Positions 53,301 to 61,920 of a stretch of DNA of 62,224 bases are shown piece after piece. The position numbers were made by a program, and so were the translations under genes. Below the pieces are notes generated by a model. The model ran no database searches, was not told where the DNA came from, and saw only the letters and a program-made list of their open reading frames with translations. Every line of letters begins with the position of its first letter. Position 1 is the stretch's first letter. Origin of the DNA: Flavobacteriaceae bacterium (GTDB taxonomy: Bacteria > Bacteroidota > Bacteroidia > Flavobacteriales > Flavobacteriaceae); NCBI GenBank assembly GCA_009886755.1, contig QXYU01000010.1, positions 37,113 to 99,336 on the forward strand. The letters are read 5' to 3'.

Positions 53301-54119
53301 ATGCTAAAGTTACCTAAAATTGGACTACCGGTCATTCTCATTGTATTGGCCCTCATGATTTTTGCTTCCAAATCCTCTATTAATATTGGGTATGGAGAAG
53401 CAGGCGTATTGTTCCGCACCTTTGGTGGTGGGGTTGTTACTGACGCTCCTCCATTGGGAGAAGGATTTCATATTATTGCCCCTTGGAATCGTGTGTATGT
53501 TTATAATGTCAAGCAGCAGGAATTCTTTGAAGGAAATATGCAGGTATTGTCCTCCAATGGTTTGGAGATATCCCTAGATGTTTCCGTTTTGTACCAACCC
53601 AACATCGACCGTTTGGGATTGTTGCACAGAACCAAAGGTGAAAACTATGTAAACATAGTCCTGATTCCTCAAATAAGAGCCGTGGCTCGTTCTATAGTAG
53701 GACGCTACACGCCTGAACAGCTTTATTCCACCAAACGGGATGCTATTCAAAATGAAATCTTTGAAGAAACGCAAAAGAATGTTGAGAGCCAACACATACA
53801 GGTGAATGCAGTTCTTGTGCGTGACGTAACGCTCCCTATGGCAATCAAAGAAGCCATCGAGCGAAAATTGCGCCAAGAACAAGAAGCGTTAGAGTATGAA
53901 TTTCGTTTAGCAAAAGCCAAGCAAGAAGCGGAAAGACAAAGAATTGATGCTGAAGGAAAGGCACGTGCCAATAAAATCCTTAGTGCTTCATTGACATCTA
54001 AAATTCTCCAAGAAAAAGGAATTGAAGCAACCCTAAAGTTGTCCGAATCTCCCAATAGCAAAGTCATTGTGATTGGTGGTGGGGATACTGGAATGCCGAT
54101 AATCTTAGGAAATAACTAA
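53301..54119 (+). CDS. Prohibitin/SPFH-domain membrane protein
   Basis: A 272-residue protein with one N-terminal membrane segment (about residues 6-25), an SPFH/band-7 domain (GEGFHIIAPWNRVYVYNVK, LSSNGLEISLDVSVLYQPN, RAVARSIVGRYTPEQLYSTK) and a charged C-terminal helix (about 185-240) that should form coiled coils. Prohibitin-like proteins build ring assemblies that organise membrane proteases and lipids. The ATG at 53301, 13 bases after fabG, was chosen; a longer frame overlaps fabG. Confidence 0.93.
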   Translation: MLKLPKIGLPVILIVLALMIFASKSSINIGYGEAGVLFRTFGGGVVTDAPPLGEGFHIIAPWNRVYVYNVKQQEFFEGNMQVLSSNGLEISLDVSVLYQPNIDRLGLLHRTKGENYVNIVLIPQIRAVARSIVGRYTPEQLYSTKRDAIQNEIFEETQKNVESQHIQVNAVLVRDVTLPMAIKEAIERKLRQEQEALEYEFRLAKAKQEAERQRIDAEGKARANKILSASLTSKILQEKGIEATLKLSESPNSKVIVIGGGDTGMPIILGNN

Positions 54120-54122
54120 TAA

Positions 54123-54156
54123 TATTTTTGATTGTTGCCGCAAAATTAGATATTTG
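54123..54156 (+). promoter_or_regulatory. Probable his operon promoter region
   Basis: TATTTTTG at 54123-54130 matches TAnnTTTG and would start transcription near 54137, giving the leader peptide a 25-base 5' end. The alternative is TTTG 54127-54130 as a -33 element with GATATTTG 54149-54156 (18-base spacer, one mismatch) as -7, which would make the leader peptide leaderless. Confidence 0.5.
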
Positions 54157-54161
54157 CACCA

Positions 54162-54197
54162 ATGAATTTAAAAACACATCATACACATCATTCCTAA
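54162..54197 (+). CDS. His operon leader peptide
   Basis: ATG at 54162 gives MNLKTHHTHHS and a TAA stop at 54195-54197. Four of eleven residues are histidine, in two HH pairs (54177-54182 and 54186-54191). The peptide lies between the promoter region and an intrinsic terminator in front of hisG. Its ribosome would sense charged histidine tRNA and so control termination, as in the leader peptides of enteric his operons. Confidence 0.85.
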   Translation: MNLKTHHTHHS

Positions 54198-54200
54198 ACG

Positions 54201-54249
54201 CTCAAACGTGCAGGATGTTGTTGTATGACACTCCATAGACCCGTTTGAG
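54201..54249 (+). promoter_or_regulatory. His attenuator: antiterminator pairing
   Basis: CTCAAACG (54201-54208), four bases after the leader stop codon, is the exact complement of CGTTTGAG (54242-54249), which contains most of the left arm of the terminator. When a ribosome waits at the His codons, this pairing can form and block the terminator. When it reaches the stop codon it covers 54201-54208 and the terminator forms. Confidence 0.75.
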
Positions 54250-54268
54250 CAATCAAACGGGTTTTTTT
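54240..54268 (+). terminator. Intrinsic terminator of the his attenuator
   Basis: CCCGTTTGA and TCAAACGGG form a 9-bp stem around a GCAA tetraloop, followed at once by seven T. It lies 13 bases before the hisG ATG, so it would stop transcription before the operon. It is the only strong intrinsic terminator seen in the window. Confidence 0.9.
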
Positions 54269-54281
54269 ATTAAAAACATTC

Positions 54282-55133
54282 ATGCTTAAAATAGCCATTC
54301 AAAAATCAGGACGTCTCAACGAAGACTCTTTCAAGCTTTTAAAAAGTTGTGGTATTTCCATAGACAACGGAAAAGACCAGCTGAAAGCCACCGCCCGGAA
54401 TTTCCCCTTAGAAGTATATTATCTCCGTAATGGGGATATTCCTCAGTATTTAAGAGATGGGGTAGTGGATCTTGCGATTGTAGGAGAAAATTTGCTGTTT
54501 GAAAAAGGGACAGATCTTAAAACACTACTTCCATTAGGCTTCTCCAAATGCCGGGTGTCAATTGCGATACCCAAAGAAGCTCCTTTTGACAACGTCAAAG
54601 ATTTAGCTGGCAAACGCATCGCTACATCTTATCCCAATACAGTTCAATCCTTTTTGGCTACTCAGAACATTGAAGCGGATTTACACATCATCAACGGGTC
54701 AGTAGAGATTGCCCCCAACATTGGTTTGGCCGATGCTATTTGCGACATTGTGTCCAGCGGGAGTACTTTGTTTAAGAACAATTTAAAAGAAGTTATTAAA
54801 ATTGTAGAATCCCAAGCTGTTTTGGTGCAGGGATCCCATGTGTCAGATGAAGCGAGTACCTTAATTGAAAAGCTTGTCTTTCGAATTTCAGCCGTATTAC
54901 GAGCTAAAGAATCTCGCTATATTTTATTGAATGCGCCCAATAATAAGATTCAGGCAATTAGTGATATCCTTCCCGTACTTAAAAGCCCAACGGTACTTCC
55001 ATTGGCACAAGAGGGGTGGAGTTCCTTACACTCCGTTATTGACGCCCATCGTTTTTGGGAGGTTATCGACGAGCTAAAAGCTGCAGGTGCAGAAGATATT
55101 TTGGTGTGCCCTATTGAAAAAATGGTCCTCTGA
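54282..55133 (+). CDS. hisG: ATP phosphoribosyltransferase
   Basis: HisG catalyses the first and feedback-controlled step of histidine synthesis. At 283 residues it is the long form, with a C-terminal regulatory domain (about 205-283), so it should not need HisZ. Blocks: MLKIAIQKSGRLNEDSF at the start, DLAIVGENLLFE and ADAICDIVSSGSTLF at the PRPP site. The stop overlaps the hisD start by one base (TGATG). Confidence 0.97.
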   Translation: MLKIAIQKSGRLNEDSFKLLKSCGISIDNGKDQLKATARNFPLEVYYLRNGDIPQYLRDGVVDLAIVGENLLFEKGTDLKTLLPLGFSKCRVSIAIPKEAPFDNVKDLAGKRIATSYPNTVQSFLATQNIEADLHIINGSVEIAPNIGLADAICDIVSSGSTLFKNNLKEVIKIVESQAVLVQGSHVSDEASTLIEKLVFRISAVLRAKESRYILLNAPNNKIQAISDILPVLKSPTVLPLAQEGWSSLHSVIDAHRFWEVIDELKAAGAEDILVCPIEKMVL

Positions 55134-56416
55134 TGCAGCAGTACACCAATCCTACACAAAACGAGTGGGAAGCGATCTGCCAGCGCCCTACTGCATCATT
55201 AGAAGCAATGATGCCAACCATAAAGTCCGTTTTTGACCGCGTGGCAGAAGAAGGAGATAGAGCACTCAGGGCTTATACTAAAGAATTTGATGGGGTGATT
55301 TGTGATTCTTTGTGTATAACCCAAGACCAAATATTAGCTGCGGTGGCGCAAATTCCAAACCCTCTAAAAGAAGCCATCCAACAAGCGCATCAAAATATTG
55401 AAACCTTTCACAAGGCTCAGCAGACAGAGCCTGTTCATGTTGAAACACAGGCAGGTGTCAAATGCTGGCAGCAAAAATACCCCATTGAAAAAGTAGGTTT
55501 ATACATTCCAGGAGGAACAGCTCCTTTGTTCTCTACCGTATTAATGCTAGCAATCCCAGCCAAGATTGCAGGCTGTCGTGAAATTGTTCTTTGTTCCCCA
55601 CCCCAAAAGAATGGTCAAATTGCACCAGAAGTGGTTTATACAGCACAACTGTGTGGTGTTACACAACTTTTCACTGTAGGTGGCGCACAAGCTATTGCAG
55701 CCATGGCATTAGGGACGGAATCCATTCCTCAGGTCGATAAATTATTTGGACCAGGCAATCAGTATGTTACCGCTGCGAAGCAATACGCAAGCCAAGGGAA
55801 AGCTGCGATCGATATGCCCGCTGGCCCTTCGGAGGTATTAATCGCCATTGATGCTACGGCTAATTTGGAATTTGTAGCGGCCGATTTGTTGTCCCAAGCA
55901 GAACACGGCGTTGACAGTCAGGTGGTTCTTGTAACCACAGCTCCTGATAAAATCCCCATTCTTGAAGAAATATTAAAACACCAGCTAAATGCTTTAGCAC
56001 GGAAGGAAATGGCTGCCAAAGCGCTTGGAAATTCAAAACTGATCAGTTTTAACGATTCGGAAACCGCCATTGCGTTTGTCAATGATTATGCGCCCGAGCA
56101 TTATATCATTAATGTTTCCGATACGCAGACCTACGTCAATGGTGTCCGTCATGCAGGTTCTGTATTTATTGGCCCCTATACCCCCGAAAGTGTAGGTGAT
56201 TATGCGTCTGGAACCAACCATACCTTGCCTACCAATGGCTATGCTCGCCAATATAGCGGGGTAAACTTGGATAGCTTTCTTAAAGCCATCACCTTTCAAG
56301 AAATCAGTGTTGAAGGAATCCAAGCTTTAGGCCCTGCTGTAGAAAAAATGGCTGCTGCAGAAGGTTTGGACGCACACAAAAATGCCGTAAGCCTGCGGTT
56401 AAAAAGTTTGTTATGA
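55133..56416 (+). CDS. hisD: Histidinol dehydrogenase
   Basis: HisD carries out the last two steps, histidinol to histidine. The 427 residues include EKVGLYIPGGTAPLFSTVLM, VDKLFGPGNQYVTAAKQYAS, MPAGPSEVLI, the zinc and catalytic residues in DLLSQAEHGVDSQV and FVNDYAPEHYIINV (paired Glu-His), and SGTNHTLPTNGYARQYSGV. Length is normal. It overlaps hisC by 4 bases. Confidence 0.98.
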   Translation: MQQYTNPTQNEWEAICQRPTASLEAMMPTIKSVFDRVAEEGDRALRAYTKEFDGVICDSLCITQDQILAAVAQIPNPLKEAIQQAHQNIETFHKAQQTEPVHVETQAGVKCWQQKYPIEKVGLYIPGGTAPLFSTVLMLAIPAKIAGCREIVLCSPPQKNGQIAPEVVYTAQLCGVTQLFTVGGAQAIAAMALGTESIPQVDKLFGPGNQYVTAAKQYASQGKAAIDMPAGPSEVLIAIDATANLEFVAADLLSQAEHGVDSQVVLVTTAPDKIPILEEILKHQLNALARKEMAAKALGNSKLISFNDSETAIAFVNDYAPEHYIINVSDTQTYVNGVRHAGSVFIGPYTPESVGDYASGTNHTLPTNGYARQYSGVNLDSFLKAITFQEISVEGIQALGPAVEKMAAAEGLDAHKNAVSLRLKSLL

Positions 56417-57447
56417 AGAATTACCTCCGAAAACATCTGCAAAACCATGCGATTTATCAGTCGGCACGACAAGAGTTCACAGAGGGCGCAAAAGAGATGA
56501 TTCTTTTGGATGCAAATGAAAATCCTTTTGACTGGCCCTATAATCGCTACCCAGATCCCATGCAACAAAAGTTGCGATCTAAAATATGTGAATGGCGCCA
56601 AGTAAAACCTGATGAACTTTATCTAGCCAATGGAAGTGATGAAATCATCAACCAGTTGATTTTGGCCTTTTGTGAACCCGGAGAAGAAGAAATATTGATC
56701 TGTCCACCCACATTTGGGATGTATAAGGTTGCTGCCCAGTTGTACCAGGTGGATTTATGTGAAGTTCCACTGACTAAAACCTTCCAACTGGATATGCCAG
56801 CCCTTGAGGCAGCCATCAAACCGCATTCAAAACTTTGTTTTATCCCTACACCTAACAATCCTACAGGCAATCGTTTTGCGACCGAGGATTTACAGCAACT
56901 TGCGCGCCTTTTTCCCGGCATTCTTGTGATTGATGAAGCCTATGCTGAGTTTAGTCCAGAGGTGTCAACCTTAAGTTGGCAGGCTGAGTATCCGAATGTA
57001 TTGGTGCTTCAAACCTTTTCCAAAGCCCAGGGGATGGCTGGAGCTCGTTTGGGAATGGCATTTGGACACAAAACAATTATGGAAGGACTGCACAAGGTTA
57101 AAGGCCCTTACAATCTAAATGACCTAACGCTGGATGCGGTCTGTGATCAGATCGAAAATCAGCAAGATCGTGTTAAGGAAATGGTGGTTTTAATGACCCG
57201 AGAACGAGAACGAATAGTTGCTGCCATAGAAGACCTTCCTTATATTAAAACAATTTTTCCTTCGGATGCCAACTTTTTTATGATCCGTGTTGATGACAGT
57301 CAATTGCGCTATCAACAATTGCTGGATCACAGCATTGTTGTACGAAATGCCTCAAAAAACATTTTGTGTGATAACTGTCTGCGCATCAGTATTGGTACGG
57401 TATCCGAAAACAACCAATTGATTAAGGTTCTAAGAACGCTACTATAA
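56413..57447 (+). CDS. hisC: Histidinol-phosphate aminotransferase
   Basis: A 344-residue pyridoxal-phosphate aminotransferase of fold type I. The start ILLDANENPFDWPYNRYPDP and LANGSDEIINQLI are typical of HisC; the cofactor lysine is in LQTFSKAQGMAGARLGMA. It overlaps hisD by 4 bases. The gap of 113 bases to hisB holds competing hairpins. Confidence 0.97.
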   Translation: MKNYLRKHLQNHAIYQSARQEFTEGAKEMILLDANENPFDWPYNRYPDPMQQKLRSKICEWRQVKPDELYLANGSDEIINQLILAFCEPGEEEILICPPTFGMYKVAAQLYQVDLCEVPLTKTFQLDMPALEAAIKPHSKLCFIPTPNNPTGNRFATEDLQQLARLFPGILVIDEAYAEFSPEVSTLSWQAEYPNVLVLQTFSKAQGMAGARLGMAFGHKTIMEGLHKVKGPYNLNDLTLDAVCDQIENQQDRVKEMVVLMTRERERIVAAIEDLPYIKTIFPSDANFFMIRVDDSQLRYQQLLDHSIVVRNASKNILCDNCLRISIGTVSENNQLIKVLRTLL

Positions 57448-57455
57448 CTATGAAA

Positions 57456-57513
57456 GCCCATAATCTGCCTGTCGGAAGACAGGTGGGCATTTAATACAGC
57501 ATACCAATGCCCA
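57456..57513 (+). promoter_or_regulatory. Two competing hairpins between hisC and hisB
   Basis: One fold has an inner CCTGTC-GGAA-GACAGG hairpin (57468-57483) extended by GCCCA (57456-57460) pairing with TGGGC (57484-57488). A second fold pairs TGGGCAT (57484-57490) with ATGCCCA (57507-57513). Both need the same TGGGC bases, so they exclude each other. No T tract follows. It could also be a small dispersed palindromic repeat. Confidence 0.45.
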
Positions 57514-57560
57514 TCGAAATGACTAAAGTTTTAATAATAACTACTTACATTTTTTAACAA

Positions 57561-58694
57561 ATGAGAAAGGTACTTTTTATCGATCGAGATGGAACGCTTG
57601 TAAAGGAGCCTCCAGTAGATTATCAACTCGATACTTTTGAGAAGCTGGAATTCTATCCTGACGCATTAATATTTCTCTCCAAAATTGCTCGCGAGCTTGA
57701 TTTTGAACTGGTTATGGTGAGCAATCAAGACGGTTTGGGTACCGATAGCTTCCCTGAGGACCACTTTTGGCCTGTACATAATTTAATGATGCAAACCTTT
57801 GAAGGAGTGGGGGTTCGCTTTGATAAGGTTTTAATCGATAAAAGTTTTCCGGAAGAGAATGCTCCTACCCGCAAACCAAGAATTGGGTTGCTAAATGAGT
57901 ACTTAGACAGTGCTGCCTATAATCTCAAGGAGTCTTTTGTGATAGGGGATCGTCCCACGGACATGCAATTGGCGTTAAATCTCGGATGCCAAGGAATCTA
58001 TATGGGTACGGAAACGGCTCCGGGGCAGGAAGAACTGAATGACTCTGAATGGCAAGATGCCGTAGGATTATCTACATTGAGTTGGGAAGCCATTTATCGC
58101 TATTTAAAACTAGAAAGCAGGCTTATTACTTGGGAACGAAACACCAAGGAAACGAAAATTTCTCTAAAACTAAACCTTGACGGTACGGGTAAAAGCACTA
58201 TCGATACAGGGATTGCTTTTTTTGATCACATGCTCGATCAACTGTCGCGGCATGGGCAAATGGACTTAGAACTCAAAGTAAAAGGGGATTTGGAGGTAGA
58301 TGAACACCACACCATCGAAGATACTGCCCTGGCTTTAGGAGAAGCTTTTGATGGCGCTATAGGCGATAAAATGGGAATGGAGCGTTATGGCTTTTGTCTG
58401 CCCATGGATGATTGCCTAGCACAGGTAGCTATTGATTTTGGAGGACGTCCTTGGTTGGTTTGGGAAGCCGCTTTTAAACGAGAATATGTTGGGAAGATGC
58501 CCACAGAGATGTTCATGCACTTTTTTAAATCTTTTTCAGATGCTGCACGAGCCAATTTAAATATCAAAGCTGAGGGGCAAAATGAGCACCATAAGATAGA
58601 AGCGATTTTTAAAGCTTTTGCTAAATCCATAAAAATGGCGATAAAACGTGATCCAGAAAAGCGAATTTTGCCCTCAACCAAAGGACTACTTTAA
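57561..58694 (+). CDS. hisB: Bifunctional histidinol-phosphatase / imidazoleglycerol-phosphate dehydratase
   Basis: A 377-residue fusion. The N-terminal HAD phosphatase (about 1-170) starts [14 protein letters not shown] with the catalytic aspartates Asp8 and Asp10, and has [12 protein letters not shown]. The C-terminal dehydratase (about 185-377) has the manganese-binding repeats [33 protein letters not shown] and [14 protein letters not shown]. The fused form is usual in enteric bacteria and in this phylum. Confidence 0.97.
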
Positions 58695-58711
58695 TTGAAA
58701 AAGCAAAACAA

Positions 58712-59296
58712 ATGAAAGTTGTCATTTTGGATTACGGTGCTGGAAATGTTCGAAGTGTAGCCTTTGCCTTAGAGCGACTGGGGGTAGATGCAATACTCAC
58801 AGCCGATCCCGAAAGCATTAAAAATGCCGATCGAGTGATTTTTCCTGGACAAGGGGAAGCACGCATGGCTATGCAAAAACTCGCCGCTTCAGGTTTGGAG
58901 CAAATTCTTCCGAAATTGAAACAGCCCGTACTGGGTATTTGTTTGGGAATGCAACTGTTATTTGAGAGTACCGAAGAAGGGAACACCAAGGGTTTGGGGA
59001 TTATCCCTGGCGCGGTAAAACGCTTTTCCTCTGGTAAAATTCCCCAGATGGGATGGAATACCCTCTTTGACTTGCAGGGACCCCTTTTTGAGGGTATTCA
59101 TGAAAACGACTATATGTATCTTGTACATAGTTATTTCGCTCCATTGGTGGCGGAAACAACCGCTACAGCTCATTATGGATTAAACTACAGTGTAGCCGTT
59201 CAAAAGAATAATTTTGTAGGGGTTCAGTTTCACCCTGAAAAAAGCGGTAAAGCGGGACAACGCTTGTTGCGAAATTTTTTAAACTGGAACAAATGA
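58712..59296 (+). CDS. hisH: Imidazole glycerol phosphate synthase, glutaminase subunit
   Basis: The 194-residue class I glutamine amidotransferase that feeds ammonia to HisF. The nucleophile is in LGICLGMQLLFE, and His-Glu are in GVQFHPEKSG. The opening VVILDYGAGNVRSV is standard. It lies 17 bases after hisB. Confidence 0.97.
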   Translation: MKVVILDYGAGNVRSVAFALERLGVDAILTADPESIKNADRVIFPGQGEARMAMQKLAASGLEQILPKLKQPVLGICLGMQLLFESTEEGNTKGLGIIPGAVKRFSSGKIPQMGWNTLFDLQGPLFEGIHENDYMYLVHSYFAPLVAETTATAHYGLNYSVAVQKNNFVGVQFHPEKSGKAGQRLLRNFLNWNK

Positions 59297-59337
59297 AAAA
59301 TACTGTTATTACACGAATACAAATAAAAGCCTAACCA

Positions 59338-60057
59338 ATGAAAATCATACCCGCAATTGATATTATTGATGGTAAATGTGTTCGTCTTTCCCAGGGAGAC
59401 TATGCCACGCAGAAGGTCTACAGTGAAGACCCTTTGGAGATGGCCAAACAATTTGAAGATCACGGAATTCAGTACTTGCATCTTGTGGATTTGGATGGTG
59501 CTAAGGCCAAGCAAATTGTGAATTATAATATTTTGGAGCGTTTGGCAACCCATACAGATTTACACATCGATTTCGGTGGCGGGCTTAAATCGGACGATGA
59601 TCTTCGAATCGCCTTTGAATGTGGAGCCAGTCAAGTGACTGGAGGCAGTATAGCTGTGCAAGAGAAGGCTACTTTTCTCCGATGGTTGGAAACCTATGGA
59701 CCGGATAAAATCATCTTAGGAGCCGATGCACGAAATGAAAAAATAGCAACCGGGGGTTGGTTGGAAACCTCTGACCTTGATTTGCTTCCATTCCTGGAAG
59801 ACTATTTTGCCCATGGAATTCAACAGGTGATTTGCACCGACATAAGTAAGGACGGTATGTTGGAAGGGCCTTCAGTGGTTTTGTATCAAAAAATACGAAA
59901 GGCATTCCCAGATTTAAAATTAGTAGCCTCGGGAGGGGTGAGCGATTTGAAAGATTTAGAAATTCTGACTGATATTGGATGCCACGCAGCCATTGTAGGA
60001 AAGGCTTTCTATGAAAACCGAATTACCTTTAAGGATCTCACTACATTTATCCACTAA
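59338..60057 (+). CDS. hisA: Phosphoribosylformimino-AICAR-phosphate isomerase (HisA)
   Basis: A 239-residue (beta-alpha)8 barrel. The catalytic aspartates are in [19 protein letters not shown] at the first strand and [16 protein letters not shown] at the fifth; phosphate-binding glycines are in [12 protein letters not shown] and LVASGGVSD. It overlaps the DinB-like gene by one base (TAATG). Confidence 0.97.
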
Positions 60058-60569
60058 TGGAAAGTCAATTTTGCCAGCATTTTAAAGCCAGCTGTTATTT
60101 CCGAATACAGGAAGCCACGCGTATGTTAGACATCGCCTTGTCGAAACTAAGCCCGAAGCAGCTGTGGGAGCGTCCCAATGAAAACAGCTTAAGCATCGGG
60201 AATCAATTATTACATCTCAAAGGAAACATTACGCAATACATTATTTCCACTTTGGGACAACAAGCCGATATCCGAAATCGTGACTTGGAATTTGACATCC
60301 GAGAAGGGATGGACTTGGAAACACTTTGGAATGATTTAAAGAATACCCTTGAAACAGCAAAGACCTGCATTCAAAAATGCCCAGAAGCACTATTGTTAAA
60401 AGAACATTCCGTTCAGGGATTTGACTTGAGTGGTGTTGATGTAGCCCTTCATGCCGTAGAGCATTTGTCGTATCATACAGGACAGGTAGCTTTTTGGGTA
60501 AAACAGTTAACCAATGCCCCCTTGGGGTTTTATGAGGGGATGGATTTAAACACAAAAAATAAAAGCTAA
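60057..60569 (+). CDS. DinB-like four-helix protein inside the his operon
   Basis: A 170-residue protein of the DinB/YfiT fold. The metal-binding histidines are likely in [15 protein letters not shown] (about residue 55) and [19 protein letters not shown] (about 135-145). DinB proteins are metal-dependent enzymes or thiol transferases of varied function. It starts on the stop codon of hisA and ends on the start codon of hisF (TAATG at both ends), so it is firmly embedded in the operon. It has no known role in histidine synthesis. Confidence 0.85.
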
Positions 60570-61324
60570 TGCTCTGTAAGCGAATAATCCCTTGTTTAGA
60601 CATTAAGGACGGCCGGACAGTCAAAGGTGTCAATTTTGTGAATCTAAGAGACGCAGGGGATCCCGTTGAATTGGCGCAACAGTATGCAGAAGAAGGGGCT
60701 GATGAATTGGTATTTCTTGACATCTCCGCTACAGAACAGCGTCGAAAGACTTTGGTGGAGCTGGTTGAAAAAGTAGCTCGAGCCATCGATATTCCTTTTA
60801 CCGTGGGAGGAGGTATTTCAACTGTAGAAGATGTTCATTTACTCTTGCAACATGGAGCTGACAAGGTGTCTGTGAACTCTGCAGCCGTTAAACGCCCAGA
60901 ACTTATCGATGAAATCGCTTTAACCTTTGGGAGTCAATGCTTGGTTGTTGCTATCGATGCCAAGCAAATTGACAAACAATGGAAGGTTCATTTGGTAGGG
61001 GGGAAGGTGCCTACAGAAATAGATCTTTTTGAATGGGCAAAGACAGTGGAGGAAAGAGGTGCTGGTGAAATTCTCTTTACTTCAATGGATCATGATGGCA
61101 CCAAAAATGGATTTGCCAATGCTGCTTTGGCACAGCTTTCTGAATCACGGCAGATTCCTATTATAGCTTCTGGGGGCGCCGGAAATATATCCCATTTTTC
61201 AGCCACATTTATTCATGGAAAAGCAGATGCCGCCCTTGCTGCAAGTGTTTTTCATTTCGGGAAAATACCCATTCACAAACTCAAAGCAGCCTTAAAAGAC
61301 AATCAAATTCCAGTACGACTATGA
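60569..61324 (+). CDS. hisF: Imidazole glycerol phosphate synthase, cyclase subunit
   Basis: The 251-residue barrel that closes the imidazole ring. Catalytic aspartates are in [17 protein letters not shown] and [15 protein letters not shown]; phosphate sites are in FTVGGGIST and IIASGGAGN. It is coupled to the DinB-like gene and overlaps hisIE by 4 bases. Confidence 0.98.
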
Positions 61325-61920
61325 CCCAACCTAATTTTAATAAATCCTCCGATGGCTTATTGCCTGCTATTGTACAGGATGCCGACACGCAAAAAATATT
61401 GATGCTTGGCTATATGAATGCCGAGGCGTGGGAACAAACTCAAAAAAGTAGTTTGGTGACTTTTTTTAGCCGAAGTAAGAATCGCCTTTGGACCAAAGGA
61501 GAAGAAAGTGAGAATCACTTGACTTTTGTCAGCGGGGCTTTGGATTGTGATCAAGACACTTTTTTAATCAAAGCGCATCCCAAAGGGCCAATCTGCCATA
61601 CAGGAACGGATACGTGTTGGGGGGAGGCCAATAGTCCTTCCTTTGGTTTTTTAACCGAATTGGAGAACACCATCCAATCCCGAAGGGAAAATCCAGATAC
61701 AGAAAGTTATGTGGCAGATTTATTCAAAAAAGGAATCAATAAAATCGCACAGAAGGTAGGGGAGGAAGCCGTAGAAACCGTTATTGAAGCCAAGGACGAT
61801 AATGAAAGTTTATTCCTGAATGAAAGTGCTGATTTATTATTTCATTATTTGATTTTACTGCAAGCCAAAGGCTATCGCTTGAAAGACATTGTTGCGGTAT
61901 TGGAAGGGCGCAAAAAATAA
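61321..61920 (+). CDS. hisIE: Bifunctional phosphoribosyl-AMP cyclohydrolase / phosphoribosyl-ATP pyrophosphatase
   Basis: A 199-residue fusion for the second and third steps. The HisI half (about 1-110) has [29 protein letters not shown], the zinc cysteine in [10 protein letters not shown] and CHTGTDTCW. The HisE half (about 110-199) has [20 protein letters not shown] and [11 protein letters not shown]. It ends the operon; no strong terminator follows, only a weak long-loop inverted repeat. Confidence 0.97.

Follow-up and report, generated by a model that had tools for sequence, protein, structure and literature searches.

The his operon in this DNA of a marine flavobacterium is very likely controlled by a ribosome-mediated transcription attenuator, which would sense the level of charged tRNA-His. 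In the window, by which we mean the whole analysed stretch of 62,224 nucleotides, a histidine-rich leader ORF, an antiterminator arm and an intrinsic terminator follow one another upstream of hisG (Table 1). These parts, their conservation in relatives and the covariation of arm and terminator between clades are direct observations, and at the sequence level they support the leader-peptide attenuator that a sequence-only reading had proposed. The Bacteroidota his operon that this reading placed behind the attenuator is intact and runs from hisG through hisIE in order.

Table 1. Features of the attenuator region and of the his operon, in window coordinates
Feature	Position	Strand	Description and basis
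Putative -33 element of a Bacteroidota sigma-A promoter, TTG	54128-54130	+	18 nt 5' of the -7 box; inferred
Putative -7 box, GATATTTG	54149-54156	+	5/6 consensus positions; predicted transcription start 54161
Leader peptide ORF, MNLKTHHTHHS	54162-54197	+	11 codons, stop TAA 54195-54197; sequence
Regulatory codons, CAT CAT ACA CAT CAT (His-His-Thr-His-His)	54177-54191	+	Sequence
Predicted protector hairpin, enclosing the antiterminator arm	54179-54228	+	His-codon region with ~54212-54228, 15 pairs; minimum-energy fold
Antiterminator left arm, GCTCAAACG	54200-54208	+	Exact 9-base complement of 54242-54250; swap test, 155 loci
Small hairpin within the antiterminator loop	54213-54234	+	Fold
Intrinsic terminator	54240-54268	+	9-bp stem, 54240-54248 with 54253-54261, T7 at 54262-54268; scan and fold
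Antiterminator right arm, CGTTTGAGC	54242-54250	+	Common to the left side of the terminator; sequence and fold
hisG, first regulated gene	54282-55133	+	TIGR00070 and TIGR03455, well above cut-off
hisD, hisC, hisN-B, hisH, hisA, DinB-like ORF, hisF, hisIE	55133-61920	+	NCBIfam; Pfam DinB

Leader peptide, competing hairpins and putative promoter

The short ORF upstream of hisG is rich in the operon's own amino acid, as four of its eleven codons specify histidine, all of them CAT (54177-54182 and 54186-54191). Short ORFs with clustered His codons are rare by chance and were found in 1.7% of tiles in the rest of the window and in 1.9% of tiles at non-his loci. The earlier description of an 11-residue leader with four His codons and a stop codon at 54195, shorter than its enteric counterpart, is borne out by the sequence; the leader is short because its stop codon falls immediately before the antiterminator arm. 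A clear Shine-Dalgarno sequence is missing, as had been stated, which is normal for Bacteroidota, and with the promoter predicted here there would be hardly any 5' UTR.

The arm GCTCAAACG begins two bases past the leader stop. It had been described as an 8-base element at 54201-54208 with an exact complement in the terminator; the exact complement is present, but the arm comprises nine bases. The segment 54195-54255 folds into the antiterminator with -18.4 kcal/mol, and this 9-bp pairing and the terminator are mutually exclusive, with the arm in reach of a ribosome on the leader. Scan and fold both returned the terminator at exactly the coordinates given in the sequence-only reading. Its hairpin (54240-54261), which lies between the leader ORF and hisG, reads CCCGTTTGA-GCAA-TCAAACGGG and is followed by seven T. 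The terminator folds with -16.8 kcal/mol where shuffles average -3.8 (z -6.5; 0 of 200 shuffles equal it), and the whole leader folds with -34.0 kcal/mol, compared with -16.4 for dinucleotide shuffles (z -5.8). This site is the sole occurrence of CCCGTTTGA/TCAAACGGG in the genome, and the hairpin therefore does not represent a general terminator there.

Folding added a third structure that was absent from the sequence-only reading, namely a hairpin in which the regulatory codons themselves are paired. Across 154 loci, this pairing amounts to -8.4 kcal/mol in native leaders, compared with -6.0 in shuffled ones and -6.8 with swapped partners, and the native pairing beats the swapped one in 111 of them. 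In the modelled folds, the His codons pair with 54212-54228, and this hairpin is the counterpart of the protector in classic attenuators. The segment from the arm to the terminator, within which the small hairpin of the antiterminator loop is predicted, folds better than shuffled sequence in 118 of 154 loci.

Bacteroidota sigma-A promoters follow the consensus TTG-N17-23-TAnnTTTG. The flavobacterial -7 box occupies positions -12 to -5 (PMC9723704), and the gap of 5 between GATATTTG and the leader ATG in the window thus predicts a 5' UTR of one base. A -7 box with at least 5/6 matches is located 2-8 nt 5' of the leader start in 83 of 110 flavobacterial loci, the window included, against 4.9% in the control; the gap is exactly 4 in 11 of the 110, for which a leaderless transcript is predicted. 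From the position of the -7 box, the leader mRNA is thus probably leaderless or nearly so. Leaderless mRNAs make up only 5.5% of the mRNAs in F. psychrophilum (PMC9723704). A second, less likely candidate for the -7 box is TATTTTTG at 54123-54130, from which a 5' UTR of 27 nt would follow. Preference was given to GATATTTG since L003 and L031, two relatives, retain it at equal distance and have their best score there.

Conservation and covariation in relatives

The 110 flavobacterial hisG loci were obtained from a search of related genomes (30) and from a scan of genome contigs (80). They include the window itself (L001), and as L003 and L031 apparently represent one genome, slightly fewer than 110 relatives are independent. 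In all 110, a leader with two or more His codons, an arm and a terminator are present. The leaders have a median of 18 codons (mostly 16-18 in the relatives) and four His, and when these peptides were checked for His codons, they were found to remain His-rich. In most relatives the leader ORF extends through the arm and thus ends ...CSQAR or ...SNEM. The 11-codon leader, in which the stop codon precedes the arm, is peculiar to the genus of the window (the window, L002 and L003). A ribosome at either stop position would cover the arm, and the logic of the switch is therefore retained. The spacing from the first His codon to the arm has a median of 24 nt (interquartile range 23-26), which is expected because a stalled ribosome must leave the arm free. 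The parts thus fit the geometry of stalling and stopping envisaged in the sequence-only reading, and its spacing is conserved.

In a wider draw, the hisG upstream regions of 60 further genomes were analysed, 42 of them from the same class but outside the order of the window, together with 20 genomes from other classes of the phylum. A His-rich leader ORF precedes 54 of the 60 Bacteroidia hisG genes. Seven of the 20 loci from other classes also have an ORF with clustered His codons, and these are less certain except for L176 and L177, in which arms and terminators match too. Over all loci, a leader ORF with clustered His codons is present in 160 of 190 hisG upstream regions, compared with 1.1% of dinucleotide shuffles and 5 of 190 in the reverse-strand control. 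Two loci from another class (L183, L184) carry long and very His-rich leaders before hisG, for example VKRTKLHISHPHHDVHHLHQGHHHA.

Compensating changes in the stems were also sought in relatives, and arm and terminator do vary together between clades (CTCAAGCG/CGTTTGAG, GGTAAGCC/GGCTTACC and others). The terminator is of the CGTTTGAG type in Flavobacteriaceae and of the GGCTTACC type in many other families, with CCGTCTGAG, GCTGTGGTG and CCGGCGC found elsewhere, and nearly all have the matching arm at the end of the leader. In a swap test with 155 loci, native arm-terminator pairs reached -12.9 to -15.2 kcal/mol. Exchange of partners within the two main terminator types gave -12.3 and -13.3 kcal/mol, whereas exchange between these types destroyed the pairing (-7.7 and -9.3 kcal/mol, with shuffled leaders at -7.0 to -9.6); kinship between sequences inflates such statistics, and the between-clade contrast is least affected by it. 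We think that this clade-level result is the strongest evidence that the predicted antiterminator is real. The antiterminator helix is nearly invariant in the close clade, where two-sided changes occur at three pairs and the covariation is modest (score equalled by 6 of 500 shuffles). It is weak there because the helix hardly varies, and the between-clade changes were therefore used. One relative, L063, shows a matched change in the arm and on both sides of the terminator.

The terminator CCCGTTTGA/TCAAACGGG is almost invariant in Flavobacteriaceae (L001-L110; near-invariant in 33 relatives), beyond what pairing needs. Where it does differ, the substitutions mostly create G-U wobbles on its right side. 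Part of this invariance may stem from the dual role of the left side, which does not account for the invariant CCC.

It appears to us an even question whether most of the class Bacteroidia sets his expression by attenuation, with the leader in much of Flavobacteriaceae translated from an mRNA that has no 5' UTR or almost none. If this is true, the ribosome would load at the extreme 5' end without a Shine-Dalgarno sequence and be tied to the polymerase from the first codon, and close coupling of transcription and translation would be shown in a phylum in which such coupling has been little studied.

The proposed switch and its alternatives

We infer the start site, translation of the leader, stalling, termination and the histidine response, and these would be linked as follows. 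Transcription would begin at the leader ATG or about one base 5' of it, and a ribosome would trail the RNA polymerase along the 11-codon leader. If histidyl-tRNA is scarce, the ribosome would stall on the CAT codons (54177-54191), which would break the protector hairpin and leave 54200-54208 free. The free arm could then pair with 54242-54250 before the right side of the terminator exists, and the polymerase would continue into hisG. If histidyl-tRNA is plentiful, the ribosome would reach the stop codon at 54195 and cover the arm, so that the terminator would form and transcription would end near 54268. In an untranslated leader, the His codons would pair with 54212-54228 and trap the arm, making termination the default.

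Folding of growing transcripts is consistent with this sequence of events, assuming a ribosome footprint of ~12 nt downstream of the first base of the A-site codon, a value taken from other bacteria. When the ribosome is placed on the later His codons, the antiterminator remains the most favourable structure until the transcript reaches about 54260. A ribosome at the stop codon prevents the antiterminator from forming, and the terminator is seen from 54258 onward; without a ribosome the state with protector and terminator prevails from 54258. Even when a ribosome is stalled, the full-length transcript at equilibrium favours the terminator with its accompanying hairpin over the antiterminator, and the switch must therefore be kinetic, as in known attenuators.

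The terminator alone could be read differently, as it lies between the upstream Band-7 gene (53301-54119) and hisG, and the end of that gene also precedes hisG in 80 of 110 loci. It might accordingly be a constitutive terminator of the Band-7 gene, with a chance His ORF and with hisG transcribed from its own promoter. We consider this highly improbable: only 13 bases separate the T run from the hisG ATG, which leaves no room for a promoter, and a putative -7 box is present 5' of the leader. Neither the frequency of His leaders, far above chance in the surveyed loci, nor the covariation of the arm with the terminator agrees with it. A mode of action on translation seems just as improbable. Leader ORFs near genes may increase translation by reinitiation, and the leader could thus act on hisG by translational coupling rather than by termination. 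In Bacteroidetes, a peak of stop-start distances at 11-14 bp has been reported (PMC4833913), but 84 nt lie between the leader stop and the hisG start, far outside this range. Moreover, a strong terminator intervenes, and its distance to hisG ranges from 13 to 99 nt among relatives.

A terminator with an antiterminator would by itself be compatible with any metabolite- or protein-sensing RNA, such as a riboswitch, a T-box or the site of a regulatory protein, in which case the short ORF would be incidental. This explanation is slightly less remote than the two others and still very improbable. No Rfam family matched at the gathering threshold in the window locus and nine others, and in the window region no riboswitch or T-box was found up to E = 1; matches to SSRC10 and Cgb105 near the site scored far below gathering and were dismissed as chance. 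The conserved features are a start codon and in-frame His codons at a set distance from the arm, and in the same genome trpE is preceded by Trp codons and pheA by Phe/Tyr codons.

Known attenuators and neighbouring genes

The enteric his leader (Rfam His_leader, RF00514) consists of a His-rich ORF before hisG with competing protector, antiterminator and terminator structures and default termination. The window shares the His-rich leader, the three competing structures and, as proposed here, termination as the default. It differs in its 11-codon leader with four His (mostly 16-18 codons in relatives), in the arm that most relatives carry within the leader ORF, and in a leader that lacks a Shine-Dalgarno sequence and probably has almost no 5' UTR. 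A cmscan search of the window region gave no match to RF00514 up to E = 1, and none reached the gathering score in ten loci. The mechanism is textbook ribosome-mediated attenuation, and its class-wide range in Bacteroidia has hardly been described before.

The local finding is partly anticipated, since a 2021 transcriptome study of Flavobacterium psychrophilum reports a structured conserved 5' element upstream of hisG in Flavobacteriaceae together with clues for leader-peptide attenuation (PMC9723704). This element from a related genus and the attenuator of the window are very probably the same; neither the leader peptide and the arms nor the class-wide range is covered in the main text. Attenuator peptides from leaderless transcripts are known from Streptomyces lividans (trpL, leuL and ilvL), in another phylum, with another promoter type and for other amino acids, and no His leader is listed there (PMC8079986). 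In bacilli, a histidine leader peptide precedes hisS and hisZ; it shares the run of His codons before a terminator but regulates hisS-type genes in Firmicutes, and its authors knew of no earlier leader-peptide system outside Proteobacteria and Actinobacteria (Naville and Gautheret 2010, PMC2965389). A 2022 paper on his regulation assigns T-boxes to Firmicutes and Actinobacteria and attenuators to Proteobacteria (PMC9413887). For the superphylum, his genes were surveyed in 2021, with attenuation discussed solely for enterics (PMC8305728). In the open-licence literature, we did not find the peptide, the arms or the class-wide range of the Bacteroidia his attenuator described, and the element is absent from Rfam 15 (gathering threshold, ten loci). 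A paper by Lopatovskaya and others from 2010 (Mol Biol 44:128), cited in PMC4833913, may list Bacteroidetes attenuators. A class-wide His attenuator with clade-specific arms would fill a gap in the described regulation of his genes and would supply a histidine sensor of known logic for many gut, soil and marine bacteria. It would also imply that the ribosome follows the polymerase closely enough for attenuation without reliance on Shine-Dalgarno initiation.

The gene directly 5' of the attenuator encodes a Band-7/SPFH protein, for which we know of no connection to histidine. Within the his operon, a DinB-family ORF (PF05163, 60057-60569) is inserted between hisA and hisF.

Upstream of ilvD in the same genome, a convincing Ile/Leu/Val leader was not found, and cognate leaders do occur before trpE and pheA. 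At the trpE locus (L233, contig C46), the Trp leader MNNRKTIWWPLDDWKHS precedes a terminator, GGCTTGTC...GACAAGCC with a T run, and the -7 box is located exactly 4 nt 5' of the leader ATG (TATATTTG-GTGT-ATG); WWW leaders precede trpE in most relatives. At the pheA locus (L217, contig C41), the leader MNTQFTYYRSFFYFFSEGGRAL is of the Phe/Tyr type and lies ahead of a terminator, AGTCCTGACC...GGGACT with a T run, and similar F/Y-rich leaders are found in most of 16 pheA loci.
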